Below, in pieces: positions 42,673 to 62,672 of a stretch of DNA of 64,000 nucleotides. Made by a program: the position numbers and the translations under genes. Positions within the stretch are counted from its first letter, which is position 1; each line of letters begins with the position of its first letter. The stretch is taken from assembly GCA_036504735.1 (NCBI GenBank), contig DASXUQ010000009.1:353204-417203 (forward strand). The letters are read 5' to 3'. The stretch is from a bacterium (GTDB lineage: Bacteria; Electryoneota; RPQS01). The notes under the pieces were generated by a model that did no database searches, had not been told where the DNA came from, and was given only the letters and a program-made list of their open reading frames with translations.

Positions 42673-44274
42673 TTACTTCACGAGCAACAGTTTCTGCGTC
42701 AGCGAATGCTGTGCGGTTTCCAGACGAGCAAGGTACAGACCCGAGGGCAGATTGGCGCCGTCGAACATCACCGCATGCTCTCCGGCGGCGGTTTTCTGAT
42801 CCAGCAGCGTCGCCACCAGCCGTCCCGCCACGTCATAGACCTTCAGCGTGACCATTCCCGCCTGCGGCAGGGTAAAGGCAATCCGCGTGGACGGGTTGAA
42901 GGGATTGGGGCTCGAAGAAAGGATGACGGATGACGGATGAAGGATGGGGTCGGAGACCGCATTGGGTTCGCCGGTGCCGGTGCCGCTGACGGGAATGCTG
43001 TACCACCGGTGGTAGTAGTCGATGTACAGATGAATGGTGTCGCTGACCTCACCGGGCTCGGTGGGGATGAAATAGACCGGCATGGTGCGCTGCCACATGA
43101 GGGTGTCGCCATTGGTCTGCACGAAGAACGGCGCGGGCGCCACCACGCTGTCGATGCGCACCGGCACAAAGTCGTTGCTCATCGTTACCCATTGCCGCCC
43201 TGTGGACCCGATAGCCACTTCGCCGAAGCTCACCGATGACGGTTGAATCAGATTCTCCCGGCCTTCGAAGACTCCAACATGCCAGTAGCGCAACTGCTCA
43301 TCGTAGCGGTACTGCTTGAGATAGCCGGTGGAGCCGTTCGCCGAGCGATGCATGTAGCCGCGGCGGTGCTGCGCCAGGCCGCCCCACAGGTAGACGGTGC
43401 CGCGGTCATCCATGTGCGGTGTGCCGGTAGGATTCTGGTAGACATAACCGCTGTCGAGATCATTCTGCTGATCGAAGGTAAAGCTTTCGCCCAGCACAAA
43501 GTAGAGCCCGTTCAGCAGAATACTGGAGGAATCGAGGTTGGTCTGATTGAGGCCGCGCCCGCCGGAGTTTTCCCGGCCATTGGCGTAGGTATTCAGAACC
43601 TTGATCTCGCCTTCGGCCACCAGCGCAAACTTCTCCGCATGATTGTCGGCGGGCCTGCCGTTGGCCGGATTGGAACTGGCATACAGAAGATTGTCTTCCA
43701 GCCCCGCACGGCCGGACACGCCCATGATGAGGTTGCCGCTGACCGTGCCCCACAGGTTGACAATGGGGCTGTCAAAGAAGACAACGGACGAATCGGGAAG
43801 AGCATGCGAACTCACCTCGCTGCTGTCAAAGGACATGCCCAGACGTGCCCAGGAAACGAGCATATGGTCACCCTCGAGGTGTACCCGGGCCTGCATCGTG
43901 TCGCCCTGGCTGAAGTAAAGCCCTTGGGTGGCAGCCTGCTGGCGGATCCAGGGCACGGTCGTCGGCATTTCCAGCCGCGGTGCGTTGAACACGGGCGGGT
44001 AGTCGGTGGTGAAGCCGGGATTGTAGCCCGGGCCGCGCCAGAAATCGGCCTCGCTGGAGATCACCAGATCGCAGTAATACGGATCCTGCATGATGGCGAT
44101 CTGGTCATTGGAGCGTACTGGTCCGCAAAGCGTGTCGCTGTGCCAAAACTTGATCCGCTCGCCAAATCGAGTGGTCTCGACATCCGAATAGTAGACGTAG
44201 TTGACGCCGTACGCCAGCGACACAAGGCTGATAAGCAGTGCCGCGAACAAAAGATGTTGTAGACGGACTTGCAT
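42673..44274 (-). CDS. Surface-array protein, family member 5, with sorting domain
   Basis: 533 residues from ATG 44274 (AGGAGAGG upstream). Same N-terminal helix (RLQHLLFAALLISLVSLAYG) and body (GPVRSNDQIAI, DFWRGPGYNPGFTTDYPP, NTYANGRENSGGRGLNQT, SFTFDQQNDLDSGYVYQN). The module before the tail is SVSFGEVAIGSTGRQWVTM, a different ASH version from members 1-4 and shared in type with member 6. The linker DPILHPSSVILSSS is heptad-encoded (42916-42943: AGAAAGG, ATGACGG, ATGACGG, ATGAAGG on the + strand), directly followed by SPNPFNPSTRIAF. Confidence 0.75.
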   Translation of the reverse strand: MQVRLQHLLFAALLISLVSLAYGVNYVYYSDVETTRFGERIKFWHSDTLCGPVRSNDQIAIMQDPYYCDLVISSEADFWRGPGYNPGFTTDYPPVFNAPRLEMPTTVPWIRQQAATQGLYFSQGDTMQARVHLEGDHMLVSWARLGMSFDSSEVSSHALPDSSVVFFDSPIVNLWGTVSGNLIMGVSGRAGLEDNLLYASSNPANGRPADNHAEKFALVAEGEIKVLNTYANGRENSGGRGLNQTNLDSSSILLNGLYFVLGESFTFDQQNDLDSGYVYQNPTGTPHMDDRGTVYLWGGLAQHRRGYMHRSANGSTGYLKQYRYDEQLRYWHVGVFEGRENLIQPSSVSFGEVAIGSTGRQWVTMSNDFVPVRIDSVVAPAPFFVQTNGDTLMWQRTMPVYFIPTEPGEVSDTIHLYIDYYHRWYSIPVSGTGTGEPNAVSDPILHPSSVILSSSPNPFNPSTRIAFTLPQAGMVTLKVYDVAGRLVATLLDQKTAAGEHAVMFDGANLPSGLYLARLETAQHSLTQKLLLVK

Positions 44275-44341
44275 GATACCTCTCCTGATGTTGGTTCGTG
44301 ACTCGCCCTCTATTTTCTCCCCAAAACTCACAATTCGTGTT

Positions 44342-45766
44342 TCACTTGACGAGCAGCAGCTTCACGGCGTTTTGACGGTGCGGGGTGGACAGGCGGGCGA
44401 TGTAAGTGCCCGCCGCCAGATCCGAACCGTCGAACAAGATAGAATGCTCGCCCGCCGCCCAAAAGCCCCGCGACAGGATCGCGGCTCGCCGCCCCAGCAG
44501 GTCATAGACCTCCAGCGTTGTCCATCCCGCCTGCGGCAGCACGAAACTGAGCCGCGTCTGCGGATTGAACGGATTGGGGCTGGAGGAAAGGCTGAAGGCG
44601 GAAGGATGAAGGATGGAGCCTCGATCCTCCGCCGAAAGCCGCGGTCCGGTCTTCAGCAGCCAGGCATCCACGGTATTACCCGGATGCCGGTAATAGCAAC
44701 CGCCGAGAATACACTCTCCGTCGGCTGTTGCCTCAATATCGTTGATTTCACAGTCGGCCACGGGCTCGGCATCACGCTGCCAGAGCACCATGCCGGCGGA
44801 GTCCGTACGCAGAAAGGTAGAACTGCCGGCCATCAGAAAACCGCCATCATTCAAAGGCGCGGCGCTGATGACCGTGCGGTTGGACGTTTCCGCCCAGTAA
44901 AGCTGGCTCCAGAGCATGGTACCGGCAGAATCGGTCTTCATCAGCCAGCGGTCGTAGGTCAGATGGTCCGGCTGCATATGCAGCCCGCTGAGGATGATGT
45001 TTCCATCCGCGGCAAACCGCGCGCGGTGACATTGAAAGGCGGGCACAATCGCGTGGCGCGTGCAGGACAGGCTGTCCCCGGCCGAATCGGCGCGCAGCAC
45101 CCACAGCTCCCAGCCGCCGTATTCATCGGTTTCCATCTGGGAAAGGAGGGTGAAGGTGCTGTCGGCGTTTTGCCGGATGTTCAGCGGGGAGTCGTTCAGC
45201 GGTCCGCTGATCACGCTTGTCCAGAGCACGGCGCCGCCGGCATCCATGCGGCAGAGCTGTAGATTGCGGCGCGTTCCCGCCGCACCCAGGGGCGTGCATC
45301 CGGCGTAGATAACACCGCCGTCAATGGTCTCGGTGACGAAGTTGCCGTACCCGGCATCGCTATTGGGAAAAACTTGCGTCCAGAGCGTGTCCCCCTGGGC
45401 GTTGGCGCGCACCACGCGCTCGCCGGCGCCGAAGGCGTCACTCCAGCCCACCATCACAAAGCCGCCGTCGGACATCACCCGGAAATCTTCCAGCAAGTCC
45501 GCCTGCCCTGCGCCGTACATGCGACTCCACAGGCTGTCCCCCGTGGCCGTCGTGCGTACCACCCAGAAATCGCTGTTGCCTGCCCCGAAGGAATAGGTGT
45601 ATCCGGCAAAGAAGTAACCGCCGTCGGGCAGTTGCCGCACCACCGAGCCGCCATCGTCGTTGGTCCCGCCGTAGGTGCGCGTCCATTGGTCGTCGGGCTG
45701 GGCGCACAGCAGTGCGGGACTCAGCAGCAGAAGAAGAAGCATGAGCAGGCGGAATTTCAGCAACAA
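44342..45766 (-). CDS. Secreted beta-propeller repeat protein with sorting domain
   Basis: 474 residues from TTG 45766 (AGGAAA upstream); ATG 45742 also gives a signal peptide (MLLLLLLSPALLCAQ). Repeats of about 50 residues (DGGYFFAGYTYSFGAGNSDF, WVVRTTATGDSLWSRMYG, DGGFVMVGWSDAFG) match the genes at 9754 and 11261. The linker GSILHPSAFSLSS is heptad-encoded (44585-44612), and that DNA is nearly identical to the intergenic repeat at 62677-62700. The sorting domain is SPNPFNPQTRLSF ... GTYIARL ... LLVK. Confidence 0.8.
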   Translation of the reverse strand: MLLKFRLLMLLLLLLSPALLCAQPDDQWTRTYGGTNDDGGSVVRQLPDGGYFFAGYTYSFGAGNSDFWVVRTTATGDSLWSRMYGAGQADLLEDFRVMSDGGFVMVGWSDAFGAGERVVRANAQGDTLWTQVFPNSDAGYGNFVTETIDGGVIYAGCTPLGAAGTRRNLQLCRMDAGGAVLWTSVISGPLNDSPLNIRQNADSTFTLLSQMETDEYGGWELWVLRADSAGDSLSCTRHAIVPAFQCHRARFAADGNIILSGLHMQPDHLTYDRWLMKTDSAGTMLWSQLYWAETSNRTVISAAPLNDGGFLMAGSSTFLRTDSAGMVLWQRDAEPVADCEINDIEATADGECILGGCYYRHPGNTVDAWLLKTGPRLSAEDRGSILHPSAFSLSSSPNPFNPQTRLSFVLPQAGWTTLEVYDLLGRRAAILSRGFWAAGEHSILFDGSDLAAGTYIARLSTPHRQNAVKLLLVK

Positions 45767-45781
45767 TCTTGTGTTTCCTGC

Positions 45782-45809
45782 TAAGAAATGAGAAACGAGA
45801 AACGATGAA
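45782..45809 (+). repeat. Heptad island
   Basis: Four units (TAAGAAA, TGAGAAA, CGAGAAA, CGATGAA) between two array genes. Confidence 0.72.
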
Positions 45810-45831
45810 GGCGGCGAGCGCCTTCGACGGG

Positions 45832-47772
45832 TTACTTGATAAGCATCAGCTTCAGGGTAGCCTGGCGGTGCGGAGACAGCAGGCGCGCGAAGTAGATGCC
45901 TGCCGAGAGTGTGGACCCGTCAAAGGAGATGGTGTGCTCGCCGGCACTAAGCAACCCGTCGTGCAGCGTGGCCAACCGCTGGCCCAGAATGTCGAACAGG
46001 CCAAGATTCACGCGCTCCGCTTCCGGCAGCGAGAAGGACAGCCGCGTCTGCGGATTGAACGGATTGGGAGCGCAGGAAAGGGTGAAGGATGAAGGCTGAA
46101 GAATGAAAGGGATATTTTCTGCCGGGGAAGGGCTGAGGTTCAGCCACGTTTCTCTCGGGGTCAGCAGATCAGGATGACTGTCATTGTTGACATCGGCAAA
46201 GGAGATTTCCGGCGCGGAGAAAACAGGCAGAACTCCCGCATGGATATCCCATTCACCGTTGCGGTAGAAGTAGGCATCCCAGTGTCCGCTGCTCTCATCG
46301 CCGAAGGTTTTGCCCAGCAGTTCACACACGCCATCACCGTCCAAATCCACCAGCCGGAAGTTCAGCAAGCCCTCGGGAAGCCCCGCGCTCCATTCCGGAT
46401 GCAGCACCAATGCGGTATCCTGCGCAAAGGTAAATTCATAGAACAGGATGCGCGGGCTTTCCTCGCCGATCGTACCCAGTGCGGCCAGTTCGGCGCGGTC
46501 ACTACCCGTGATGTTTCCGATCTGCGCAAACTGCAGCAACGTATCCGGGTTATAGACATGGCGGAAACTGCTGTTGGTCAGATTGAAATCAGTTTCGAAG
46601 CGATCGATAGTGCCCGCACCCGTGTTAAGCTGGAATTCCCAGGCTCGATAGCCTTCGCTCTGAGGGTTGCCGCTGCCCATCGTGAGCAGCAGATCCTTGC
46701 GGCCATCGCCGTTCACATCCGCCATGCTGGCGGCCAAGCACTTGCCGCTGTAAGCGTGCACCAAAGTGTTTCGGTCGTCAACCCATCCAGCGCTGTTTCG
46801 CAGCAGCAGGTCAAACTCGGTCCACCCGTTGGCCAGCGACGGCTGGTTGTGCGCGATAGCGACGGTGGTTCCGGCGGCCGTGTGCACAGTGCCCAGCGCC
46901 ATGCCGGACACATGTCCGAGATGCGTGGTCGACGAGGCATGGGTAGCCGACGCGGTGACAACCACCGCGAAGCCGGAATAGCCGGGGAGGCGGAACAGGC
47001 CTTCCCATTCACCGTCGCCATTAAGATCCCCTCCGCCCGGGCCGCTTAAGTAGGGAGTCTGCCACGGGGCATAAGTGGAGAAACGGATGCCGGGATGCAG
47101 ATTTGTGGCGATCACGTACCCCGGCGCGGCGGCAAAATCCAGATCACCGTCGTGGTCGAAGTCGCCATCAAACAGATTGGTCACCGGGTATTCACCGGTA
47201 GTGACTACCGTATCCGCGCTCCAGTCCCCCGCGGTACTGCGGTGTTCGAGGGTGAGCAGGTCGTATCCCGCAACGCGCTGCCAGATTATGCCATCCAGTT
47301 CGCCGTCGCCGTTGTAGTCGCCGAAGATCGCCTGCTCCAGTGTGTGCGGCAGGGCAAAGTCAAAGAGCAGCATGTCATTGCGCGTCCAGCGCCACGACAC
47401 CGCATTTTGCAATTTCCATGCGCGCGGCGGGTTGTCGTAGACCACCAGTTCTTTGGCAGGATCATCATCCAGATTTGTCGCCCAGAGGCGGCCATAGCCG
47501 AGGGGCTGGGTGATGGTATGCAGCGTCCAGTGGATATTGTCCGCATTGCGCACGGCGACCTGCGCACCGTTGGGAGAGAGCAGGATCACTTCGTCGCGGC
47601 CATCGCCGTCAAAGTCTCCCACCGCCACCATGGCAGAGGTATCCGCCGAGAACGGTGTCTCGAAGCCGGAGGGATCCCGAAAATCTCCATCCATCCTTTG
47701 CCACTGCCACGGTTGCGCAAACAGAGCCCCGGCGCAGATCAGGCAAGCCAAAACAATGATGCAGCATTTCAT
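45832..47772 (-). CDS. Secreted FG-GAP/VCBS-type repeat protein with sorting domain
   Basis: 646 residues from ATG 47772 (GAGGA upstream; a TTG two codons earlier is in frame). A signal peptide ends GALFAQ. The body has at least six Ca2+-binding-like FG-GAP blades: VAVGDFDGDGRDEVILL, ATNLDDDPAKELVVYD, IFGDYNGDGELDGIIW, FDGDFDHDGDLDFAAAPG, ASMADVNGDGRKDLLLTM, FRLVDLDGDGVCELLG and FADVNNDSHPDLLTP. This predicts an integrin-like beta-propeller. The heptad-encoded linker (46075-46109; IPFILQPSSFTLS) leads into APNPFNPQTRLSF and ends LMLIK. Binding partner unknown. Confidence 0.83.
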   Translation of the reverse strand: MKCCIIVLACLICAGALFAQPWQWQRMDGDFRDPSGFETPFSADTSAMVAVGDFDGDGRDEVILLSPNGAQVAVRNADNIHWTLHTITQPLGYGRLWATNLDDDPAKELVVYDNPPRAWKLQNAVSWRWTRNDMLLFDFALPHTLEQAIFGDYNGDGELDGIIWQRVAGYDLLTLEHRSTAGDWSADTVVTTGEYPVTNLFDGDFDHDGDLDFAAAPGYVIATNLHPGIRFSTYAPWQTPYLSGPGGGDLNGDGEWEGLFRLPGYSGFAVVVTASATHASSTTHLGHVSGMALGTVHTAAGTTVAIAHNQPSLANGWTEFDLLLRNSAGWVDDRNTLVHAYSGKCLAASMADVNGDGRKDLLLTMGSGNPQSEGYRAWEFQLNTGAGTIDRFETDFNLTNSSFRHVYNPDTLLQFAQIGNITGSDRAELAALGTIGEESPRILFYEFTFAQDTALVLHPEWSAGLPEGLLNFRLVDLDGDGVCELLGKTFGDESSGHWDAYFYRNGEWDIHAGVLPVFSAPEISFADVNNDSHPDLLTPRETWLNLSPSPAENIPFILQPSSFTLSCAPNPFNPQTRLSFSLPEAERVNLGLFDILGQRLATLHDGLLSAGEHTISFDGSTLSAGIYFARLLSPHRQATLKLMLIK

Positions 47773-47786
47773 GAGCAATCCTCGAG

Positions 47787-49373
47787 TTACTTCAGCAGCA
47801 CAAGTTTGAGTGTTCTTTGGTGGGATGCCGCTTCCAGCCGCAGGAAATAGATCCCCGCCGGAAGCTGCGCCCCGTCAAAGGTCACGCGATGTTGACCTGC
47901 TGTCAGCAAACCGTTTTGCAGGACCGAGATCTGCTGGCCGAGAAGGTCGAAGACCTTGACCGTTACCCTTTCTGCCGATGGCAACGTGAAAGCGATCTGG
48001 GTGGTTGGGTTGAAGGGGTTGGGATAGACGGAGAGACTGAAGGATGCGGGCTGAAGGATGACGTCGGGAGACCCGTTCGGATTTGGGGTTGCCGTGCCGC
48101 GGACGGGGATCTTGAACCACTGCTGATAATAGTCGAGATAGACGCGAACGGTATCGGCAAATGTTCCCGCATGGTCCGGCGCGAATGTGACCACAATCGG
48201 CTGCTCCCAGCGGTAGCTGTCGGGCCGCACCGCCTGAAACTGAGACGGCACGCGGATGCTGTCAATCGTCAGGGGGACAAAGTCATTGCGGACCGTCACC
48301 GTATCCTGCACGGTTCTGCCTGCTTGAATGGTGCCGAAGTTGATGGAGGCCGGTGTCAGCACATTTTCCTGACCCTCAAAGACTCCGATGTGCCAGAACT
48401 TCAGTAGCGGATCATAACGGTACTGTTTCAAATAGCCCGTGGTACCATTGGTTGACCGGTGCACATAGCCGCGCCGCGCCTGCGTCAGGGATCCCCACAG
48501 ATAGATGGTGCCACGATCATCCGTGTGCGGCGAACCGGGAGGATCCTGATAGACATAGCCGCTGTCTACGTCATTCTGCTGCTCGAAGGTGAAGCTTTCG
48601 CCTAACGCACAATAAACGCCATTCAAGGCGATGCTGGTGAGAGCGGGATTCGTCTGGCTATTACCGAGGCCGCCCGAATTCTCGCGGCCATTGGCCGTCG
48701 TGTTCAGAATCTTGATTTCTCCTTCAGCGACCAGTGCGAACTTCTCTGGATGATTGGGGGCAAGCTGTCCCTGCGGCCCGGTGGAGCTGGTATAGACGAT
48801 GTTGTCTTCCAAACCGATTTGTCCGGAGGCACCAAGTATCAAGATCGTACTGAGAGTTCCGAAGATGCGTACGTGCTGTGCATCAAAGAACACCACCATG
48901 GAATCGGCGAGAGGCACAAAAATCATCCTGGTGCTGTCATAGGCTGCCCCTTCTGGCCAATAGTCTATTCGCATGACGCGAGATTCGAGTTGAACCCGGT
49001 ACTGCATCCCCGGAAAACTGTAGAAATTTCCCTGTGCCGCTGCCTGCTGGCGGATTGACGTTACAACGTGCGGGAAGGACAGCGTCGGTGCATCCGTAAT
49101 CACGTACGACCCGCGGAAATATGGCCCCCAGGCAAAGCTATCGCAGGCCATCATCAGAAAGTCGTAATTGTAAGGCAATTGCAGCGGGTTGGAACCAAAG
49201 CAGTCGTTGGAGCGGATGGGCCCCATCAGGCTGTCCATAGCCGAGAAATGCATGCGCTGGCCGAGCACGGTCACTTCCGAGTCGGTGCAGTACATGTAAT
49301 TGAGACCGTAGGCGAGCGACACCAGCGATATGACCAGCGCCGCAAAGATGAGATGTTGGAAACGGATGTGCAT
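47787..49373 (-). CDS. Surface-array protein, family member 6, with sorting domain
   Basis: 528 residues from ATG 49373 (GGGAGGGTATC upstream). N-terminal helix RFQHLIFAALVISLVSLAYG. The body is closest to member 5 (GPIRSNDCFGSNPLQLP, AEGEIKILNTTANGRENSGG, SFTFEQQNDVDSGYVYQD, SLTQARRGYVHRSTNGTTGY). The pre-tail module has NVLTPASINFGTIQAGRTVQ. Its heptad-encoded linker (48031-48058; DVILQPASFSLS) precedes VYPNPFNPTTQIAF; the domain ends LVLLK. The typical DFWRGPGYNPGFHG is replaced here, so the N-terminal third is the most divergent in the family. Confidence 0.75.
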   Translation of the reverse strand: MHIRFQHLIFAALVISLVSLAYGLNYMYCTDSEVTVLGQRMHFSAMDSLMGPIRSNDCFGSNPLQLPYNYDFLMMACDSFAWGPYFRGSYVITDAPTLSFPHVVTSIRQQAAAQGNFYSFPGMQYRVQLESRVMRIDYWPEGAAYDSTRMIFVPLADSMVVFFDAQHVRIFGTLSTILILGASGQIGLEDNIVYTSSTGPQGQLAPNHPEKFALVAEGEIKILNTTANGRENSGGLGNSQTNPALTSIALNGVYCALGESFTFEQQNDVDSGYVYQDPPGSPHTDDRGTIYLWGSLTQARRGYVHRSTNGTTGYLKQYRYDPLLKFWHIGVFEGQENVLTPASINFGTIQAGRTVQDTVTVRNDFVPLTIDSIRVPSQFQAVRPDSYRWEQPIVVTFAPDHAGTFADTVRVYLDYYQQWFKIPVRGTATPNPNGSPDVILQPASFSLSVYPNPFNPTTQIAFTLPSAERVTVKVFDLLGQQISVLQNGLLTAGQHRVTFDGAQLPAGIYFLRLEAASHQRTLKLVLLK

Positions 49374-49385
49374 GATACCCTCCCT

Positions 49386-49420
49386 GAGAATGATGAACGA
49401 CAAACGCTGAACGATGAACC
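49386..49420 (+). repeat. Heptad island
   Basis: Five units (GAGAATG, ATGAACG, ACAAACG, CTGAACG, ATGAACC) between array genes. Confidence 0.75.
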
Positions 49421-49431
49421 AGCGCCCCGAT

Positions 49432-50863
49432 TTACTTCAGCAGCACAAGTTTGAGTGTTGTTAGATGGGATGCCGCTTCCAGCCGCAGGAAATAGATCCC
49501 CGCCGGAAGGTGCGCCCCGTCAAAGGTCACTCGATGTTGACCTGCAGTCAGCAAACCGTTTTGCAGGACCGAGATCTGCTGGCCGAGGATGTCAAAGACC
49601 TTGACCGTTACCGGTCCGGCTGTTGGCAGAGAGAACGTAATCTCTGTCGCGGGATTGAACGGATTGGGATACGCCGATAGGCCGAAAGATGCGGGCGAAG
49701 CGATGAACGAAGGGGCCATCGATGGTATCTGTTCATATCCGATCTTCGCCAGCCATATCTGGCCGGACTGAGTCTGTGTCAAGGCGGTTCCGGCAACCAC
49801 ATAGGCACCGCTGGCGGTTCGCGCCACGGAGTTGGCCTGACCGTGCGTGGTGCTGAACGTCATGCTCCATAAGCTGTCACCTTCCGCATCCGTTTTCAAG
49901 ATGCCAATCACGGCAGTCGATGTTGGGTACTCCAATCCAACCAGCATAAAGCCGCCGTCGGCGGTTTGCTGCGCGTCATACGCTTGCCAATCGTAACTTC
50001 GGCTGCCGTAGGTGCGAGCCCACAAGCTGTCGCCGGCGCTGCTGACCTTCTGGATCCGCATGCCCAAATAATAGCCGGAGCCGATGGGTCCTAAGCCTCC
50101 CACCACGTAGCCGCCGTCCTCGGTCACCGTCACCGCCTGTGCGGAGCCACGATCCAAGTGCCGCGTCCACAGGGTATCACCGTTTTCGTCCAGTCGCACC
50201 AGCCATTTGTAAATGTCTTGCGGCTGCCAGTATCCTGCGGCAATAAAGCCTCCATCGCTGGTCTGCCGAACCGCATTGAAGTGCTCGTCTGCCCAGCGTT
50301 CACCGAGCGTCCGCGTCCATAGGGTATCGCCGAGGCTGTTCAATCGTACAAGATAGCCGTTGCACAGCGACCCTCCGGCAGGCATCCGGTTGCCGGCTAC
50401 AATGTAGCCGGCAACCGGATGTCTGCTGCACCGATTCGAAATTCGCCAAGGTGTCGACCGAAAAAGTGCGCGTCCATACAGTATCTCCAAGCCGGTCGGT
50501 CTTGATGACCCAGCCATCTTGATTGAGATAAGGAGCGCCGTTGCAACGGCCGGCCAAGACGAAGCCGCTGTCGGCCGTCTGCACGATGGCATTAATGCCA
50601 TCGTAGCCGTTGCCGCCATAGGTGCGGTTCCATTCGATGTTTCCTGCCGAATCGGTCTTCACCAACCAGGCATCCGAGCCTCCGGCGCCCAGCGAACTGG
50701 TGAGTCCGACGATAGCAAAGCCACCATCAATGGTGGCGCAGACCGCGGTGCCTTCCTCTCCTGAATTGCCGCCATAGGTGCGGGTCCACAAGGTGTCCAG
50801 CGGCTGCGCAATTGCTACACCACAGAGCGCGAGCGTCAGCAAAATCATCAAAGAATATTTCAC
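49432..50863 (-). pseudogene. Secreted beta-propeller protein with sorting domain, broken by a frameshift
   Basis: From ATG 50863 the signal peptide (MKYSLMILLTLALCGVAIAQ) and about two propeller repeats are read in one frame as far as VDTLANFESVQQT. The frame then shifts; the other frame continues from YIVAGNRMPAGG through four more repeats to the sorting domain (AYPNPFNPATEITF ... GIYFLRL ... LVLLK). The paralogs read QTxDGGYIVAG across this joint. The shift of one extra base falls inside a perfect 18-bp inverted repeat (50383-50421), which suggests a templated mutation. Whether this is a true allele or an assembly error cannot be told here. Confidence 0.8.
50383..50421. repeat. Perfect 18-bp inverted repeat at the frameshift
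   Basis: Arms 50383-50400 and 50404-50421 are perfect reverse complements, with a 3-nt loop AAT. The right arm (+ coordinates) holds the second frame's codons for VAGNRM. The left arm replaces the expected (D)GGY codons of the repeat consensus. Confidence 0.95.
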
Positions 50864-50891
50864 GGCTGTTCCCTCCCGAGGAATTCCAGAG

Positions 50892-51250: not shown

Positions 51251-51927
51251 TTGACCTTTTCCTCTCCAAAGGCGGTCATGCAATAACAGTGCAACCGTGC
51301 AGAAAATGCAAAGCCTTCCGGTGAAGAGAAAATAGTACTCTTCACTCGGAAGGCTCTGTAAAAACATAGGTTTCACCGGAGATGTGTAGCTTTGGAGATC
51401 AGACGCGAAACCGCCAGTAACGGACAAAGCTCGCGCATGAACCCTTGGCAACCCGCCGGATCAGCCCTACAGAGCCGCTATGAACTGCCGTGAAAACAGC
51501 ATCTCAGAGCGGGCCTGATATGTAAGGACGGTGGCCGCAGCGCATGCAGCAATCAACAAATAGCCGTGCAACAACCTTGCCGGAAGCCAGGGCTAAAGGA
51601 TAAGACCGGAGACCAGAGACTGAAGACTTGAAACGCGCTCTGAAAAGGCCTTCAAGTCTCTGGTCTTTAGTCTCGAGTCTTCCCTTAGCCCTTCAGAAAA
51701 ACTTCACCCCCCGCCCATTTACCTTTGACCGGGGAGGGTGGTGGTCAAGAGCTGAGGGCAGGGGGGTCAGAAAGAGTCAAAATCAGAAGGCGAAGCGATC
51801 ATCGGGATGATGGATTTTGGACACACCTGTCCAGATCCCTCATCCCTCCGTCTTCATCCTTTTCCTAAGTTAACAAGCTTTCCGGATTATTGCAACTCTT
51901 TTGGCGAAAAAAGAGAATCGAGCGCTC
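51251..51927. other. Long intergenic region with structured segments and no gene
   Basis: No convincing gene. A long imperfect hairpin (51312-51328 with 51338-51355, one bulge) lies upstream of the remnant gene. Bases 51360-51500 contain short complementary words but match no riboswitch I can name with confidence. A heptad island occupies 51601-51680, and 51700-51900 shows nothing specific. Confidence 0.5.
51601..51680 (+). repeat. Paired heptad island
   Basis: Purine half 51601-51635 (TAAGACC, GGAGACC, AGAGACT, GAAGACT, TGAAACG). Pyrimidine half 51653-51680 (CAAGTCT, CTGGTCT, TTAGTCT, CGAGTCT). The halves are imperfect reverse complements (AGACCAGAGACT pairs with AGTCTCTGGTCT), so the island can form a long hairpin. 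Confidence 0.78.
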
Positions 51928-54900
51928 TTAGCGGAGGAGCAGCATCTTGTGGGTTTGAGCAAAGCCCGGAGCCTGTAAACGATAGAAATAGACTCCCGAT
52001 GCCAGCCCGGATGCATCAAAGCGCGTCGTATGTTCCCCGGCTTCCATCACCCCATCGGCCAGAGTCCTCACCAGCCTCCCCATCACGTTGTACACCCGCA
52101 GTTCCACACGCCCCCGCACCGCCAGATCGAATTGGATAAGCGTGGTCGGATTGAAAGGGTTGGGAAAAGCGGGATGAAGCGCGAAACGGGAAGCAAGGGC
52201 TATTCTCGGCTTCGCAGCGAGAACGGTCTGTTCGAGAGTAAGCCGCTGGGCGCGGACATGGTAGACTGTCAGTGCTTGACTGTCGTCCGTTTGCCATTCG
52301 GTCCAAGCGAGAGTGACGTGTCCACGCCCGTCAGATGCGGCCACGGGAGGATAATAATAACTGACGGGCGCTTGCTGAATTGGGCTCCCTTCGGGTGCCG
52401 CCCAAAAGGGATCGCTTGCAGGTTGCCCCGAAGCATCGAGGTGCCGACAGAATATCTTGAACCCTCCAAGGTCTCTGCTGCACCACGCGGCGAACAGCCC
52501 GTCGCTGCCGTCGGGAGTCACGGATAACTGGGAGACGCCACTGTCCGTGACGCAGACCTGAGCGCCTTCCCAGATGAGATTGCCCTCGGGCGAAAGCTTC
52601 GTCGCCATTACGGATGATCTGACGACAGGCCAACCTTCGTACTGAGTCCACGCCAGCATCAGATTATTATGAGCATCCACTGCCGTGGCGGAAAGGCCGC
52701 GCGACAAGGTCGAGGGCTGGAGCACCACAAGGCCGTCCGTGCCCCAAAGCCGCGTCGAATCGGCCGCCAAATGCTGCGCGAAAACGGCAGAGGAATCGGG
52801 AAGAGAGTCGGCTGGTGCAGCTATCCTCTTGCCCCAAGCGAAATAGGCCCCGCCGTTGCCATCGGCCACCATCGGCGGCGGGTTGGGATCCCAGTTGCTG
52901 CAATAGCGCCCGTCAGGGAAGGCTCCCGACACTTGAACAGCCCATTCCCGCTGCCCAAGACCGGTGACGCGAGCGCAGAAGAGGTCAGCATGAAAGCCGA
53001 CGGTTGCAGCATACCTCCCTATGCTGTACGCAATAAGGCAGGACGCATCGGAGTTGGCAACGATGCCGAAGGGTTCATTACCCAAGCAGTTTGACGCCGT
53101 TGCCACGAGAGTCGGCGGCGACCATACCTGATTCAGCAGGCTGTCGAGTCGCGCGATATACACGCGCTGATCGGTTTGCGAAATACTCTCTGCCCATGCA
53201 ACATAGACTCCCCCCTGTCTATCCGGGGCGCAGACAAAACGGTATGGCGAGCCTGTCACTGGCGCTATAGCTCGGCCAAGCCCGTCGCCTGCCGCCTGCC
53301 CCGCCGCATTGATCCGCGTGACCCGATATGAGCTTACCGGGGAGTGATAATCCGAAAACACTGCGAAGAACCCGCCGTGCTCATCCGGACAACTGGCCAG
53401 AGGCGATGCGTATGCCCCGGGGTCAGTATCCTGCTGGCACAAGCTGTCGCCTCCGGATGCTCCCGAAGCATGGCCTGTGGAGTCAAGAATCTGAAAATAT
53501 GTGTAAACGCGCTCATCTCGCCGGTCCGGCCACAGAACTGCCGTATTCCCATTTCCCGTACTGACAGCTTGCACATACTCCACCTCTCCATTCAATCCGC
53601 CGGCAAGGTGAAGTCCCGCAGGAGTTAGTTGCCGTTCGCCTGAAGTCATGCCGAGAATCTGTGCCCGAACACCGGTGACGCCCCGCGTGACATCATTCCA
53701 TGCAACCAGAACTCGAGCGGAGTCTGTCGGGACGATGACGGCATCGTAATGATGCAGCGAATCCTCTGACACAGGCACGCCGCCCGGCCCATTCCATAGG
53801 CGGGTGCCACTGGCAGACACGCGTGCGGCACGGACATCCGAGTATCCGTTACCGCGCTCTTTGCCCCAGGCAACAACCGCTCCGCCCGCACCGTCAGATG
53901 CTGCCCGCGGCGAAATGTTACAGAAGGCCGAATAGCTCCAGAGACCTACTCCATTGGCCGTCCATGGGAAGCTGCCCTGCGGCGAAACCTTCAATGCATA
54001 GACGGTATTGGGACTGCCGTGGAAGGCGAGGAGACAACCATCTACGGTGTCCTGGTTGACGCTGGCAATGAGGTTGTAATCAGTGGCTCCCCGGTTGCAG
54101 GACACGCCGTTGGCGGCCCACGTCACCTCCCCCAGCGAATCCATACGCTGTATGTGCAACGCGCCGTCATTCGTGAGCGTAGGGGTCCAGGAGACATAAC
54201 AACCACCGGATCCGTCCAGGCAGATGTGTGGGCCGTAGATTGAACAGTAAGCGGCATAGATTTGTACACCGCTCTCATTCCACAGGAGTGATCCGGAGGA
54301 GTTCAACTTGTTAACCCGGATGCGGCTCAGGCTCTCCCGATAATCCTCCCAGGCGATCAACAGGTTGCCTGCGTCATCACATGCCGTTGCTGGTGATGAT
54401 CCGGAGTTGGTTGCAGCCACCGCCACCGGTGCTTCCCACACGGACGTCCCCTCACCTGCGATGCGCAATGCGTAAATAGAGTCGCTTCCGCTAGTACCTC
54501 TATCCCATGCAAGGATAGCTCCTCCGGAATGATCGTCGGTCATCGTGTATGCGAGTACGAAGCCATCAACTTCACTGCCCTCAATCTCAACTCCGGTGAA
54601 GTTGTCGGCGCTCCACTGCCGTTGTCCCGCAGCGTTCAGTTTCTGCGCTCGAATTTTACAGCATTCATCGTCGTGAAACTGACAGTCGCGTGGTGAACGA
54701 TAATCCTGCCATGCAACTATCCATCCGTCGCTCCCCGCGATGGCCGCCGGATAGCGTTGCCCGCCGGGATCGCCGCACACGATTACTCCACCTTCCGCCC
54801 ATTGCGGTGTCCCATCCGGGCTGATCAATTGCGCCCAGATGTCTCCATCACCGCCGGCAAAACTGCTCCACACCACCAGCACGTCCCCTTGCTCATTCCG

Positions 54901-55035
54901 CGCCGCCACCTGTTCCCATTGCAGATCGTCGCCTTGCCGAATCACCACGCCGGTCGTGTCCCATTGGCGGGGATCGGCAAAAAGCGACCTGTTTGTGAGG
55001 AGTAAGCATGTCAGAGTAATCAGCAGTGACTTCAT
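51928..55035 (-). CDS. Large secreted repeat protein (1035 aa) with sorting domain
   Basis: From ATG 55035 (GGAGGGAAAC upstream); an in-frame ATG 12 codons earlier adds a non-signal lead. A signal peptide (MKSLLITLTCLLLTNRSLFA) precedes about 16 irregular repeats of the kind GGAxVAWxDYR ... VRAQxLxxxGxxxW. Examples are GNLLIAWEDYRES, GGAVVAWGKERG and GGAYFAWGKRIA. This is consistent with one or more beta-propellers. The sorting domain (AFPNPFNPTTLIQFDL, VYNVMGRLVRTL, GVYFYRL) ends LLLR. It is the longest gene in the window, has no close paralog here, and its linker is not heptad-like. Confidence 0.78.
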   Translation of the reverse strand: MKSLLITLTCLLLTNRSLFADPRQWDTTGVVIRQGDDLQWEQVAARNEQGDVLVVWSSFAGGDGDIWAQLISPDGTPQWAEGGVIVCGDPGGQRYPAAIAGSDGWIVAWQDYRSPRDCQFHDDECCKIRAQKLNAAGQRQWSADNFTGVEIEGSEVDGFVLAYTMTDDHSGGAILAWDRGTSGSDSIYALRIAGEGTSVWEAPVAVAATNSGSSPATACDDAGNLLIAWEDYRESLSRIRVNKLNSSGSLLWNESGVQIYAAYCSIYGPHICLDGSGGCYVSWTPTLTNDGALHIQRMDSLGEVTWAANGVSCNRGATDYNLIASVNQDTVDGCLLAFHGSPNTVYALKVSPQGSFPWTANGVGLWSYSAFCNISPRAASDGAGGAVVAWGKERGNGYSDVRAARVSASGTRLWNGPGGVPVSEDSLHHYDAVIVPTDSARVLVAWNDVTRGVTGVRAQILGMTSGERQLTPAGLHLAGGLNGEVEYVQAVSTGNGNTAVLWPDRRDERVYTYFQILDSTGHASGASGGDSLCQQDTDPGAYASPLASCPDEHGGFFAVFSDYHSPVSSYRVTRINAAGQAAGDGLGRAIAPVTGSPYRFVCAPDRQGGVYVAWAESISQTDQRVYIARLDSLLNQVWSPPTLVATASNCLGNEPFGIVANSDASCLIAYSIGRYAATVGFHADLFCARVTGLGQREWAVQVSGAFPDGRYCSNWDPNPPPMVADGNGGAYFAWGKRIAAPADSLPDSSAVFAQHLAADSTRLWGTDGLVVLQPSTLSRGLSATAVDAHNNLMLAWTQYEGWPVVRSSVMATKLSPEGNLIWEGAQVCVTDSGVSQLSVTPDGSDGLFAAWCSRDLGGFKIFCRHLDASGQPASDPFWAAPEGSPIQQAPVSYYYPPVAASDGRGHVTLAWTEWQTDDSQALTVYHVRAQRLTLEQTVLAAKPRIALASRFALHPAFPNPFNPTTLIQFDLAVRGRVELRVYNVMGRLVRTLADGVMEAGEHTTRFDASGLASGVYFYRLQAPGFAQTHKMLLLR

Positions 55036-55098
55036 GTTTCCCTCCAAGGAAGTTACCGGGCCACATTGCATGACAGGATGTTCTACGCGCCAGAAGCC

Positions 55099-55129
55099 GG
55101 CGCGCCGGTGAAATGCTCACCGGCGCGCC
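55099..55129 (-). terminator. Terminator-like hairpin after serA
   Basis: A perfect 13-bp stem (55099-55111 with 55117-55129), loop AATGC, 15 nt after the stop of serA on the - strand. No T-run follows. Confidence 0.65.
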
Positions 55130-55143
55130 GTTCAGTCCGTTGC

Positions 55144-56052
55144 CTATTTCTTGAAGTAGTCCTTGAGGATTTCCACCACTTCGCCGCCGACGCGGGATTG
55201 GGCTTCGCCGGTGGCGGCGCCGATGTGCGGGGTGACGATGACTTTGGGATGCTCCACCAGATCGCGGCGGGGATTGGGCTCGCCGACAAACACATCGAGG
55301 CCTGCACCACGGACCTTGCCGCTGTTGAGGGCGGCAATCAGCGCCTCCTCATCCACCGTGCCGCCACGGGCACAGTTAATCAGCACCACACCCTGCTTCA
55401 TCAGGGCAAATTCCGCCGCGCCGATTTCCGGGCCAACGGTCTTGTCGAAGGGGATATGCAGGGAAATGAAGTCGGCCTGCTCCAGCACTTCCTGCTTGGA
55501 GACCAGCGGGAAACCGTGGTTCTTGACGGCTTCGGGGAATTTGTCATAGGCCATGATCCACATGCCGAGGGCCGCGCACCGCTGGGCAAGCTGCGCGCCG
55601 ATGCGGCCCATGCCGATGAGGCCCAGCACCTTGCCGCCCAGTTCGATGCCCTTGCCGAATTCCTTCTTTTCCCATTTGCCCGACTTGGTAGAGGCATCGG
55701 CCTGTGGGATCTGCCGCGCACAGGCGAACATCATGCCGAGGGCCAGTTCGGCCACGGACGCGCTGGACGCGCCGGGAGTGTTGCGCACTTCAATACCCTT
55801 GCTCTTGGCATGGGCGACTTCGATGTTGTCCACGCCCACGCCGCCGCGAATGACGAGCTTCAGACCGTTGGCATTGTCCAGCACCGGTTTGGTAATTTTG
55901 GTAGCCGAGCGCACGACAACCGCGTCGAACTTCTTAATGTTCTCGATCAGTTCCGGCTCGGGAAAGAACTGTTCGGTGACGTCAAAGCCGAGCTTCTTCA
56001 GTTCGGCCACGGCATTCTTGTCCATGCCGTCCGTAATGAGAATTTTTTCCAT
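55144..56052 (-). CDS. serA: D-3-phosphoglycerate dehydrogenase, short form
   Basis: 302 residues, NAD-dependent 2-hydroxyacid dehydrogenase fold. The substrate domain contains VVVRSATKITKPVLD and RGGVGVDNIEVAHAKSKGI. The nucleotide domain has LGLIGMGRIGAQLAQR (about residue 145). The catalytic Arg is in NCARGGTVDEEAL, the Glu in GLDVFVGEPNP, and the His in VIVTPHIGAAT. These blocks match PGDH rather than lactate or glycerate enzymes. It lacks the C-terminal ACT domain (about 530 residues in the long form), so no serine feedback site is present. It makes 3-phosphohydroxypyruvate, the substrate of the SerC-type aminotransferase at 60830 on the same strand. Confidence 0.9.
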   Translation of the reverse strand: MEKILITDGMDKNAVAELKKLGFDVTEQFFPEPELIENIKKFDAVVVRSATKITKPVLDNANGLKLVIRGGVGVDNIEVAHAKSKGIEVRNTPGASSASVAELALGMMFACARQIPQADASTKSGKWEKKEFGKGIELGGKVLGLIGMGRIGAQLAQRCAALGMWIMAYDKFPEAVKNHGFPLVSKQEVLEQADFISLHIPFDKTVGPEIGAAEFALMKQGVVLINCARGGTVDEEALIAALNSGKVRGAGLDVFVGEPNPRRDLVEHPKVIVTPHIGAATGEAQSRVGGEVVEILKDYFKK

Positions 56053-56095
56053 GGTAAGTGTTTCCCAGTTGGGTTATGAAACGGGGGTAAAAGTC

Positions 56096-56130
56096 AAACG
56101 ATGAACGAGAAACGATGAGTGATGAACGGA
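56096..56130 (+). repeat. Heptad island upstream of serA
   Basis: Five units (AAACGAT, GAACGAG, AAACGAT, GAGTGAT, GAACGGA). Together with 56131-56224, where nothing else is recognised, it separates serA from the N-acetyltransferase gene. Confidence 0.75.
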
Positions 56131-56224
56131 AGAATCCGAAAGTAGTTGCCCAGCTTGCTGGGCTATGATGCCATGATCGCGGTGCGGACTGTTTGCCGCC
56201 GCAAAGGGAAAAGCCGAGGGCGTG

Positions 56225-57058
56225 TCATTCCCACACGTCGCGGAAGGCCGGGATTTCGGTCAGGGCTTCGGCAACAACGGCGCGGGGAATGGCGAAGAGG
56301 CGCTCGGCCTCTTCGGCCACGGCCTCAGGGCCCGTAAGGGTGCGCCGGATGGTCTGCCCGCCCGCCATTTCGAGGCTTTCCAGATTGTGCAGCACGCGCG
56401 AGCCGCCGGGTGTGTACGTGGCGATGAGCACGCCGTTCATAAAGGTTGCGTCGGGGCAGAAGGAATCGGCAATTACGGCAGAGAAATCGGCGATTGCGCG
56501 CGGCGCAGGATTCACGGTGTAGCCGTGCCGCAGTTCGCCACGGCGACGCAGGGTCAGCCGCGACCGGCCCGCTGCGTCCTGCGGCGCGAGCACATAGCGA
56601 TCCTCGCCATGGATGATCACAACGTCTGCGGGCAGATCGCGCGGCAGGGGGTCCAGAAACGGCGCACCGTAGCCCACATCCACCAGAAATTCTCGCCCCT
56701 CCGTCCGTACGAGGCTGACCACGTGCACATCCGGCGCGCTCATGTCCGCGCCGCACAATGTCACGTCATAGCCAAGATGGCGCAGCAGGGAATGGAAATG
56801 GCCATTGTTGGCGTAGCAGGTGCCGCCGAAGTGAAAGGCCTCGATCCCCGCAAGGAACCGGTCAAGATCCGGAAAGCCCCGCCAACCGTAGCGCTTTTTG
56901 TAAAAGAGCTTGGAAACATTTTCGAACGGCACGCGCCGCAGATGCGCCCGCACCAGTTCGGTAAGAGCCGCATAGCCGGGAGCCCGGCGCGTGACGCCCA
57001 ACAGAGACAGGTAGCGGTCGAACAGATCCTGAGCCGCTGGCGGGTGGGCGGGAAGCAT
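56225..57058 (-). CDS. Arylamine N-acetyltransferase
   Basis: 277 residues with the NAT triad: Cys in FGGTCYANNGHFHSLLRHLG (about residue 80), His in DVHVVSLVRT (about 111) and Asp in FLVDVGYGAP (about 127). The N-terminal block RVPFENVSKLFYKK is also typical. The enzyme transfers acetyl or other acyl groups from CoA to arylamines, hydrazines or related amines; in some bacteria NATs act in natural-product or cholesterol pathways. Cytoplasmic. It starts 9 nt after the stop of the preceding secreted-protein gene, so it is probably cotranscribed with the surface pair, an odd partnership. Confidence 0.88.
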   Translation of the reverse strand: MLPAHPPAAQDLFDRYLSLLGVTRRAPGYAALTELVRAHLRRVPFENVSKLFYKKRYGWRGFPDLDRFLAGIEAFHFGGTCYANNGHFHSLLRHLGYDVTLCGADMSAPDVHVVSLVRTEGREFLVDVGYGAPFLDPLPRDLPADVVIIHGEDRYVLAPQDAAGRSRLTLRRRGELRHGYTVNPAPRAIADFSAVIADSFCPDATFMNGVLIATYTPGGSRVLHNLESLEMAGGQTIRRTLTGPEAVAEEAERLFAIPRAVVAEALTEIPAFRDVWE

Positions 57059-57067
57059 AGCTCTTTG

Positions 57068-58480
57068 TTACTTCAGATAGGCCAGCTTAAGCGTGCGTGT
57101 GGTCTGTCCGGATTTCAGCACGGCAAAGTAGATTCCGCCCGCTCCCGCCGGAGACCAGCTCTGTGTGTGCGTGCCTGCGGCCTGCATCCCGTCAAACAAT
57201 GTCGCCACTTTTTGCCCCAGCAGATTGTAGACGGAAAGAACGATCTTCTGCGCCTGTGGCAGACTGTACTCGATTTGCGCCTCACTGTTGAACGGATTGG
57301 GACTGGAAGAAAGGCTGAAGGCTGAAGGATGAAGGCTGGAATGCCGATCACTTGATTGCAGCGGAGTATCCCAGCCGAGGGACGCAAGGTGCAGAGAAAC
57401 GGTGCTGGAATCGAGCGGGCTGTATTCGACCCACAGCGCGGCGATCAGGCCGTTACCGGTCATGGCCAATGCGGCCTCCGAGATCAGGTAACCCGCTTGC
57501 GGTTCGGCGAGCAAACCCGGAAGAGACGAAATCGCGCCCATCGTGTCCGCGCGGAACAAATACCAGTCCCCGATGCCGCCGGCGAGCCACGCCATGCCGA
57601 AGTCGGGATGGGACGCGGAAGCGAGGGGCAAGCCTTCCGTGGTAGCGCGCGCTTGAGCACTCTGCCCAACAACTTCATAGAGGCGTGCCCTGTCCGAAGC
57701 GCAAAGTACGAGGGTATGCGCGGCGCGCGTGCGCAAAAAGTTCACGACATTTGCCGGGCAATCCAGTGGGGTGGGCGGTGGTTGCACCATTTCGTGCGGC
57801 AGAAGCAGGAACAGCGATGGATCCGAACCAAGGGCAATAAGAGAGTCCGGTGAAATCGAGCGGATCATAAGACGGTCTCTTGGTCCTTGAAAATAGTTCA
57901 ACGTCTGCGCCACCTCGCCTGACCACAGATAATCCTCGCCACTAACACTAATGCCGCCTTCCTGCTGTTGCGGTGTGCGGACATCCCAATAATCAATCCA
58001 GGCAGCGGCATAGCCGCTGTCTCGCGGCGCGAGCACTGGCGAAACATGGCGGCTGGCATACGTCCATGGGCTGTTGTCACACCAGTTGTTTCCCGAATCG
58101 ATGACCCTGCCCGTGTCTGCGGCATCTCCACCCGTATAAATAACGGTCTGATTGATCGCGGACGTGGTGTCGTAAACGAGTGCCACCCACCTCGAACTCG
58201 TCATGGTCACGTCGGCCAGCCAGCGCGTCCAGCCGGAGCCATGCGTCGTCAACGCTTCCGGTCCCGCCACCACCTGCCCGTTCTGCAGCAACACCGTGGC
58301 ATGAAATACCGTGTCGGCGATCTGATAGAATACATCCGCCGTGTCCGCATTGCGCAAGGTCAGATGCGGCTGGGAAATGGTGGCCATGGTGGTCAGTTCG
58401 GTCACCGTGAAAGGTCCGGTGAAGGGCTGCGAGAAGGCAACCGTCGACAGGAACACTAAAGCAGCAACTAAGCGTAGCAT
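57068..58480 (-). CDS. Secreted protein with sorting domain, paralog pair member 1
   Basis: 470 residues with an ideal AAGGAGG site and a signal peptide (MLRLVAALVFLSTVAFSQ). Shared with the gene at 58497 are GPFTVTELTTMATISQPHLT, LRNADTADVFYQIADTV, the VALVYDTTSAINQTVIYTG strand and the pre-tail segment SLHLASLGW. The fold is probably all-beta; no known domain was identified. The linker HSSLHPSAFSLSS is heptad-encoded (57308-57335: AGAAAGG, CTGAAGG, CTGAAGG, ATGAAGG on the + strand). SPNPFNSEAQIEYSL follows, and the protein ends LKLAYLK, a variant of the usual LLLK. Confidence 0.75.
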   Translation of the reverse strand: MLRLVAALVFLSTVAFSQPFTGPFTVTELTTMATISQPHLTLRNADTADVFYQIADTVFHATVLLQNGQVVAGPEALTTHGSGWTRWLADVTMTSSRWVALVYDTTSAINQTVIYTGGDAADTGRVIDSGNNWCDNSPWTYASRHVSPVLAPRDSGYAAAWIDYWDVRTPQQQEGGISVSGEDYLWSGEVAQTLNYFQGPRDRLMIRSISPDSLIALGSDPSLFLLLPHEMVQPPPTPLDCPANVVNFLRTRAAHTLVLCASDRARLYEVVGQSAQARATTEGLPLASASHPDFGMAWLAGGIGDWYLFRADTMGAISSLPGLLAEPQAGYLISEAALAMTGNGLIAALWVEYSPLDSSTVSLHLASLGWDTPLQSSDRHSSLHPSAFSLSSSPNPFNSEAQIEYSLPQAQKIVLSVYNLLGQKVATLFDGMQAAGTHTQSWSPAGAGGIYFAVLKSGQTTRTLKLAYLK

Positions 58481-58496
58481 GAGTTCCTCCTTGACG

Positions 58497-59939
58497 TTAT
58501 TTCAGGTAGACCACTTTCGATGTGCGGACGGCGTCCGCGGACTTCAGCATGACAAAATAAATCCCCGTGCCGCACTGCGGCGTCCACATCAGTGTGTGGG
58601 ATCCCGCGATCTGAGGGCCGCTGATAAGCTGCTCGATCTTCTGACCGAGCACATTGTAAATGCTCAGTTCGAGTGGCCCCGCATGCGGCAGCGTGTACTC
58701 GATGCGCAACGTGCCATTAAAAGGATTGGGGCTGGAAGAAAGGATGAAGGATGAGGGATGAGGGATGAAGGAAGATCCTGCATCGAGGATCGCGTAGGGG
58801 CTCAGAGAAATGATCCGCAGTTGGACGCGGCTGGTGTCCTGCACGCCGTTTTCGAGCCACACACTGGCCAGAAAGCCATCTGTGGCCATGCCCAAGGTCG
58901 ATTCTCCGAGATGAAAACCACTGCGCGGCGTGGCCAGCAGTCCCGGCAGGTAGAACATCCCGCCGCTGGTGTCCACACGCATCACGTAGAGTTCCGTGGC
59001 CCCTCCGGACAGCCACGCCATACCGTAGTTGCGGTCTCCGGCAAAACTGTGGGGCACGCCGCGGGTTGTCTGGCGCAACAGACTGGTCTCATTTCTGAGT
59101 TCCATCAGCCGCGCACTGTCGGCATTGGCCAGCACAAACAGCCGACCCCCGGGAGTGGCCAGAAAGCCGACCGGATGGGGCGCCCAGCAGGCGTATTCCC
59201 GGTTCCAGACACTTGGCGGCTCAAAGAACGGGGACAGGTGGCGCAACATGGCCGTGCTGTCGAGGGTGGATATGCCGCAGGCCAGCACCGAATCCGCGCG
59301 CACGGAGCGGATCAACATGGCGTCATAGTCCCGCCCGAAATCATCATGTCCGATGCGCACCGCGGCGGTATCCGGCGGATAGTCCATGCCCAGCCAGCTT
59401 ACGCCGGCTTCCCGTGCACCGCCTTGAGTCACCACATACTCCCAGGCATTCAGCCATGCGGCCACGAATCCACCTCCGACTCGCGGCGCCAGATGCAGGG
59501 AATAGTTGTAACTGCCTTCACTATAGGGCAGTCCCGTGGGACGGGTGCGGTCCGCGGCCACGATTTCGCCGTCGCCGGGAGTATCCAGCCCGCGGTAGAT
59601 GAGCGTGCGGTTGAACTCGGCCGTGGTGTCATAGACCAGTACCGCCCAGTCCGCTCCGGTCCAGACGGCGTCGCAGATCTGCCGCGTCCAGTTCTGGCCT
59701 TCCATTGCCAGTTCCTGCGGCCCGGCAAACATCTGGCCGTCCTGCAGCGTGACCGCAAGATGATAGACCGTATTCTGAGAAGCATAAAAGACATCCGCCG
59801 TATCCGCGCTGCGCAGCGTGACATGCAGATCGCTCATCCGCGCATAGCTGCCGGTCTCAAAGACCGTGAACGGCCCGCGCGGCGGCTGGGCAAAGAGCGC
59901 CGACGAAAGGAACAACAGGGCAAGAAGAGCGCGTTGCAT
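58497..59939 (-). CDS. Secreted protein with sorting domain, paralog pair member 2
   Basis: 480 residues; signal peptide MQRALLALLFLSSALFAQ. It matches its neighbour along the length (GPFTVFETGSYARMSDLHVT, LRSADTADVFYASQNTVYHL, WAVLVYDTTAEFNRTLIYRG, FHLGESTLGMATDGFLASVW). This is a tandem duplicate 16 nt upstream in the same transcript. The linker is the clearest heptad case in coding DNA (58737-58771: AGAAAGG, ATGAAGG, ATGAGGG, ATGAGGG, ATGAAGG), read as FIPHPSSFILSS before SPNPFNGTLRIEYTL. It ends VVYLK. Confidence 0.75.
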   Translation of the reverse strand: MQRALLALLFLSSALFAQPPRGPFTVFETGSYARMSDLHVTLRSADTADVFYASQNTVYHLAVTLQDGQMFAGPQELAMEGQNWTRQICDAVWTGADWAVLVYDTTAEFNRTLIYRGLDTPGDGEIVAADRTRPTGLPYSEGSYNYSLHLAPRVGGGFVAAWLNAWEYVVTQGGAREAGVSWLGMDYPPDTAAVRIGHDDFGRDYDAMLIRSVRADSVLACGISTLDSTAMLRHLSPFFEPPSVWNREYACWAPHPVGFLATPGGRLFVLANADSARLMELRNETSLLRQTTRGVPHSFAGDRNYGMAWLSGGATELYVMRVDTSGGMFYLPGLLATPRSGFHLGESTLGMATDGFLASVWLENGVQDTSRVQLRIISLSPYAILDAGSSFIPHPSSFILSSSPNPFNGTLRIEYTLPHAGPLELSIYNVLGQKIEQLISGPQIAGSHTLMWTPQCGTGIYFVMLKSADAVRTSKVVYLK

Positions 59940-62670: not shown

Positions 62671-62672
62671 GA

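Follow-up and report, generated by a model that had tools for sequence, protein, structure and literature searches.

Heptanucleotide repeats in frame at the T9SS sorting-domain junction of an Electryoneota bacterium

Rickettsia palindromic elements are short dispersed repeats that have been captured in frame in proteins at tolerated sites. Among long simple sequence repeats (SSRs), heptanucleotides are the most abundant class in prokaryotes, according to the summary of Mrazek et al. 2007 given in PMC4679880. In Xanthomonas and Nostoc, GGGAATC and GGGGA(C/T)T heptads form dispersed, mostly intergenic tandem arrays that vary at homologous sites; when on the coding strand they lie 0–50 bp from stops, and when on the non-coding strand they precede genes (PMC4692102). 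The TAACTGA direct repeats of marine Beggiatoaceae give stops on one strand and are open on the other, and MacGregor and colleagues proposed that heptad repeats might be tolerated between protein modules or at protein ends (PMC4679880). The T9SS type A sorting domain (TIGR04183/PF18962), at whose edge the repeats described here lie, is a seven-strand Ig-like fold in the RgpB CTD structure (PMC4804311).

Here we analyze heptad repeats in a 64-kb stretch of an Electryoneota genome of 4.16 Mb (positions 353204–417203 of contig C9, G000:C9; hereafter the window), extending the counts to 2.05 Mb of the same genome and to relatives within the phylum. The arrays are of a known kind, bacterial heptanucleotide arrays, with a 7-nt period that exceeds other periods genome-wide; what is new, and well supported, is that they have been captured in frame time and again at a single protein-export junction in genomes across the phylum. 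They share with the Xanthomonas and Nostoc heptads a strand- and stop-biased intergenic placement, but here the coding copies cluster at a single type of domain junction, and the AAGGATG unit lacks the GGG runs that the three-tetrad G-quadruplex rule (PMC4692102) demands; G-quadruplex heptads were set aside as a class, given that the consensus holds GG only. As in the Beggiatoaceae, the heptads are direct repeats with stops on one strand and an open opposite strand, although TAACTGA stands mostly before start codons, whereas the arrays here for the most part follow stops and have in-frame copies at export-signal junctions. In contrast to prokaryotic long heptanucleotide SSRs in general, a fixed, non-periodic AAGGCGG unit recurs, which points to copying of an element and not to slippage alone. 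Unlike the Rickettsia elements, the arrays are tandem 7-nt units and not palindromic.

Sorting-domain genes and their heptad linkers

A profile search with the T9SS sorting domain PF18962 gave at least 150 matches in the genome, and a gene of the T9SS translocon is present (SprA_N PF14349, E 2.2e-34, in a 2266-aa frame). The window alone contains 17 sorting domains (CTDs), and all eight window proteins tested passed TIGR04183 at their C-terminus with 24.6–46.2 bits (cut-off 23). One such domain lies at 58497..58730 on the minus strand, behind the linker at 58737..58776, with PNPFN at 58730, a TIGR04183 score of 37.0 bits and a match to PF18962. An AlphaFold (AF2) model of a window CTD with its linker has a pLDDT of 82 and seven strands arranged as an Ig-like beta-sandwich, and Foldseek returned weak matches to it, among them RemA-CTD (8gl6) and the mirolase CTD (8qb1). 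The domain behind the heptad linkers is a T9SS type A sorting domain, and the heptad stretch falls just upstream of the range of the curated models.

A sequence-only reading of the window had named ten stretches in which heptads precede the sorting domain of secreted proteins. In all ten, an in-frame [PS]NPFN codon run follows directly, and eight have clear heptads (lag-7 or lag-14 run score ≥8); 48031-48058 is weak and passes at lag 14 only, and 12421-12448 stays below the threshold (4/7). On the minus strand, the best lag-7 run (score 20) is found at 58737..58776 in ORF 58497-59939, with the peptide SSFIPHPSSFILS. It is followed by LHPSAFSLS at 57310..57340 (ORF 57068-58480), which reads AAGGCTG AAGGCTG AAGGATG AAGG on the plus strand, the weak VILQPASFSLS at 48031..48061 (ORF 47787-49403), FILQPSSFTLS at 46075..46109 (ORF 45832-47778, with an FG-GAP passenger), ILHPSAFSLS at 44588..44621 (ORF 44342-45766), which has the diagnostic AAGGCGG unit in frame phase 1, and ILHPSSVILS at 42916..42949 (ORF 42673-44331). 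The plus-strand linkers are VILYPSAFSLS at 19044..19073 (ORF 17624-19318), which includes CCGCCTT, SYPSSLILS at 17316..17349 (ORF 16016-17593), with a period of 14 (2×7), and FSLPPSSFTLS at 10944..10977 (ORF 9754-11223), whose CCGCCTT is in phase 0 and displaced by one heptad from the ILHPSAF type. An eroded paralogue of this last linker, at 12421..12448 (ORF 11261-12700), retains the peptide FSLPPSTFSLS with its DNA heptads partly gone.

For a wider sample we scored the 60 nt before PNPFN in 162 CTD linkers from 2.05 Mb, half of the genome, and called heptads at a run score of at least 8. Such runs occur in 14 linkers at lag 7, 16 at lag 14 and 6 at lag 21, and in 0–2 at all other lags from 4 to 24; with a looser cut (lag 7 or lag 14), 18 of the 162 linkers are positive, nine of them in the window. 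Control 60-nt windows elsewhere in the same CTD genes were positive in 8 of 5,124 cases. The description of such linkers as a feature of many genes is therefore apt locally (9/17 window CTD genes) but too broad for the genome sample, where it covers only 14–18 of 162.

The periodicity could have been a by-product of protein sequence, with a selected linker peptide coming first and amino-acid choice producing the DNA pattern. The heptad peptide does fit a conserved P-x-x-F-x-L, and homologues free of heptads retain that motif. When the peptides were back-translated with the codon usage of the genome, however, a mean of 0.45 linkers were periodic (maximum 3) against the 14 observed, and the codons of the heptad linkers are those of the repeat (Leu CTT 96% versus 13% in the genome, Pro CCT 70% versus 11%, His CAT 100% versus 50%). 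Hence, the linker periodicity is a property of the DNA and not of amino-acid choice. Moreover, the same DNA element is also present after stop codons and within the genes for QueG and aldehyde dehydrogenase (ALDH), where no such peptide is needed. A protein-first origin is thus highly improbable, and as the sole cause it is refuted by the codon test; it holds for the register and length of the linkers.

Non-coding islands and the shared element

Seven is the leading tandem period in the 2.05 Mb, with 103 islands at lag 7 and 2–18 at most other lags; lag 8 has 53 islands, lag 16 has 35 and lag 24 has 32, and lags 14 and 21 are multiples of 7. The commonest 7-nt unit is AAGGATG. The CATCCTT/AAGGATG family comprises 70 islands, against 0–2 for each of four scrambled units, and 45 of the 70 are intergenic. 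The core of an island is AAGGATG-AAGGCGG-AAGGATG in an array of about 22–38 nt, and other units are less numerous. Allowing at most one mismatch, the 22-mer AAGGATGAAGGCGGAAGGATGA occurs 61 times in this genome and is found in 8 of 20 relatives, with a reversed control of 0.

The islands are placed at gene ends. Among 30 testable islands, 28 are in purine sense and no more than 15 nt from a stop codon, compared with a mean of 7.2 and a maximum of 15 under random placement, and relatives with a scorable gene end show the same placement. In the window, the non-coding island AAAGGATGAAGGCGGAAGGATGAAGGATGAAC (62672..62703, plus strand) begins 2 nt past the stop of the plus-strand ORF 62248-62670 and has the unit order of the coding copies.

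The similarity of this island to a coding linker had been taken to argue for one origin of coding and non-coding copies, and both points are borne out. The string near 44588-44615 and the island at 62672-62703 have GAAGGCGGAAGGATGAAGGATG in common, exactly, and the order of units is equal, including the AAGGCGG unit. Read antisense, the linker at 44588-44615 is AAGGCTG-AAGGCGG-AAGGATG-AAGGATG, and the unit order of the islands is found in many linkers; most non-coding islands, and many linkers, carry the AAGGCGG variant at one and the same position. A shared origin of the linker heptads and the non-coding islands is supported.

Two other kinds of element were considered and rejected. A palindromic coding repeat (RPE/REP kind) fails by inspection, given that the core AAGGATGAAGGCGGAAGGATGA, made up almost entirely of purines, is unable to self-pair. 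A CsrA-binding array, suggested by the likeness of AGGAUG to the CsrA consensus, would call for CsrA, and PF02599 had no match in the genome although the controls E. coli, B. subtilis and T. maritima were positive. We found no terminal structure, recognized target-site duplication or dispersal machinery for the heptad arrays.

Several other repeats were noted alongside. AAATAGG-type purine heptads (32234-32271, 35103-35130, 36074-36097 and 63236-63266) lie at or just behind the stops of plus-strand genes (32262, 35096, 36079 and 63232), as the AAGGATG islands do. T-rich or pyrimidine-sense heptads (TTTTGCT, TCGTTTC; for example 45784-45805, 49388-49419 and 37780-37804) stand between a stop and the next start on the minus strand, and the spacers that carry them resemble mosaics of different heptads. 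Long pure AAGGATG arrays of at least 13 units lie at two contig ends (C8:357345-357446 and C17:1-100), where the assembly breaks. Tandem period 8 ranks second with 53 islands, which shows that the process is not wholly restricted to 7-nt units.

Register and length at the export junction

In its pyrimidine sense, (CCTTCAT)n is open in three frames, all of which give the cyclic peptide HPSSFIL; in the purine sense most frames meet TGA. The CCGCCTT unit of the linkers lies at −23 (in one case −26) or −30 from PNPFN, with an atypical copy at −24 (C8_313937). Positions −23 and −30 are two reading phases one heptad (7 nt) apart and give LHPSAFSL and LPPSSFSL, and the residue register is equal in both, since all frames of (CCTTCAT)n translate to a single cyclic heptapeptide. 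P-S-x-F-x-L results from any CCTTNNN heptad and matches a conserved P-x-x-F/Y-x-L of the junction. Sorting domains without heptads in this genome read LPTEFALHQNYPNPFNP, and heptad-free linkers aligned on Leu have P at −5 in 65%, F/Y at −2 in 77% and L in 82%, frequencies that are somewhat inflated by the anchored alignment.

The linker had been described as a site where a flexible spacer between passenger and export signal is tolerated. The description holds only in part. In the AlphaFold model of CTD plus linker, confidence is low up to about linker residue 12, in keeping with a spacer-like upstream half, but fairly high from PSSFIL onward, where the downstream half fills the conserved P-x-x-F/Y-x-L and leads into the first strand; that half is thus part of the edge of the sorting domain.

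The junction recurs as a site of heptads. In a scan of the phylum, a linker pattern of three CCTT heptads before PNPFN was present in 16 of 39 genomes from four families (f1, f3, f6 and f7), with a reversed control of 0, and the CCTT-heptad linkers of these other members keep the same register. Within the present genome, about 17 of about 25 in-gene islands belong to CTD linkers, a class that accounts for 0.59% of coding DNA (binomial ~1e-32), with the in-gene calls resting on a home-made gene caller and some of them uncertain. A literature query with PNPFNP gave no match, nor did a text search for HPSSFILHPSSF.

Growth of the linkers by three 7-nt units, or seven residues, at a time had been proposed from the coding capacity of the repeat. 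It is contradicted by homologues, in which linkers with, without or with another heptad have the same length. The closest genomes compared belong to different genera of its family. In the family of ORFs 57068-58480 and 58497-59939, a conserved Trp position and PNPFN are 24 aa apart in all homologues, whether these have CCTT heptads, a TTCGTCG-type heptad (L206) or none (L207, L209 and L215). In the KTGPDP family, the distance from KT to PNPFN in f1 is 26 aa with heptads (L235, L239 and L246) and without (L236, L254, L262 and L264), and in f3 it is 27 aa with CCTTCAT (L230) or with CCTTTAA/CCTTCAA units (L222 and L228). The protein keeps the linker at a set length even as the DNA heptad appears, disappears or switches to another unit. 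Because lengths are constant, replacement, or an ancestral array followed by loss, is needed rather than simple insertion, and the arrival step in T9SS linkers was not caught. The paralogues at 10987 and 12464 resemble synonymous erosion of formerly periodic DNA, as does LHPSSFALSSY at C8:43959, which is written in GC-rich codons.

Constant lengths also bear on the idea of a phase-variable export switch, in which slippage by one 7-nt unit would shift the frame, remove the sorting domain and toggle secretion. Seven is not a multiple of three, and the array stands exactly between passenger and export signal. However, the arrays are short (3–5 units) and imperfect, all scored CTD frames are intact, homologues do not vary in length and the same arrays occur in QueG and ALDH, which leaves such a switch an almost negligible probability.

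A neighboring pair of genes in the window raises the further idea of a recombination handle, with heptads as short homology for the exchange of sorting domains among passengers. The PNPFN runs at 48023 and 49668 belong to adjacent ORFs (47787-49403 and 49432-50619) with unrelated passengers; their CTD DNA is 88% identical, and the identity stops 28 nt upstream of PNPFN, suggesting that a CTD was converted or shuffled between neighbors. One gene of this pair is without heptads, though, and heptads are entirely absent from other CTD pairs whose breakpoint falls in the linker (C8_144182/146226 and C19_377626/36689). Given that breakpoints fall in linkers also without heptads, we judged the domain-swap handle weak and consider it very unlikely.

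In-frame capture beyond the linkers and the origin of the arrays

True in-frame gains do occur outside CTD linkers, in two housekeeping genes. The QueG-like epoxyqueuosine reductase of this genome has TTCCTTCATCCTTCATCCTTCATCCTTCATCCTTTC in a loop, a net gain of 6 aa over most relatives, in which the site is empty. In an ALDH loop (G000:C19:236858-236894; L285-L290), CATCCTT is repeated four times in this genome (+8 aa) and CATCGTT four times in G003 (+10 aa), G001 has another, GC-rich repeat of the CCCCCCTTCCAAGGGGGG type, and the site is empty in G005, G007 and G010; this loop is a hot spot for insertions. Net, these sites gained 18, 24 and 30 nt, all divisible by 3 but none by 7.

Local replication slippage, which has been proposed for heptanucleotide SSRs of bacteria and by which arrays would grow in place in 7-nt units and appear related only through a preference for certain units, has several points in its favor. 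Lag 7 leads genome-wide (103 islands), pure arrays can be long (13 units at the end of contig C17), and homologous sites differ in their unit, as in ALDH (CATCCTT versus CATCGTT) or in linkers (CCTTCAT versus CCTTTAA or TTCGTCG). Against it stand the linker lengths, which show no 7-nt or 7-aa steps, and the identical non-periodic AAGGCGG variant at the same place in islands and linkers, which is hard to obtain by independent slippage. Slippage may extend arrays, but alone it explains the repeated AAGGCGG unit poorly, and we regard it as a rather unlikely origin.

The arrays are probably a dispersing heptanucleotide repeat that has been captured in frame, repeatedly, at permissive sites, with the T9SS junction as its main sink. 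Short dispersed arrays would normally settle immediately downstream of a stop codon, purine strand in sense, arriving by dispersal or a templated process rather than by local slippage. Most would survive there, where either orientation is harmless, and in-gene copies would survive only where the peptide is tolerated. The T9SS junction would be the chief sink because CCTTNNN heptads encode P-S-x-F-x-L, matching its P-x-x-F/Y-x-L motif. After capture, selection on the protein would fix length and register, and the DNA heptads would erode synonymously to normal codons; the direction would be DNA first, with the peptide kept.

Under this reading of dispersal and capture, the junction offers a countable case of a non-coding simple repeat turned protein, with one element in two phases giving the same motif at an export signal's edge. 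Together, empty housekeeping sites and differing units at homologous sites make the question of slippage versus dispersal in bacterial heptanucleotide repeats directly testable. There is also a warning, in that conserved-looking linkers such as HPSSFILS need not mean shared protein ancestry. A stronger version, in which an active, putative copying process spreads heptad cassettes of about 30 nt through the phylum, targets gene ends and keeps writing a T9SS junction piece (PSSFxL) into new secreted proteins, is improbable; if true, a selfish micro-repeat would supply protein-sorting sequence.

Two further in-gene occurrences were seen. One signal peptide harbors a heptad copy, and a Ser/Thr kinase-PEGA protein (G000:C2:88974-89180) has three purine-sense islands in frame (KDEGGRMKDEG) in a linker.
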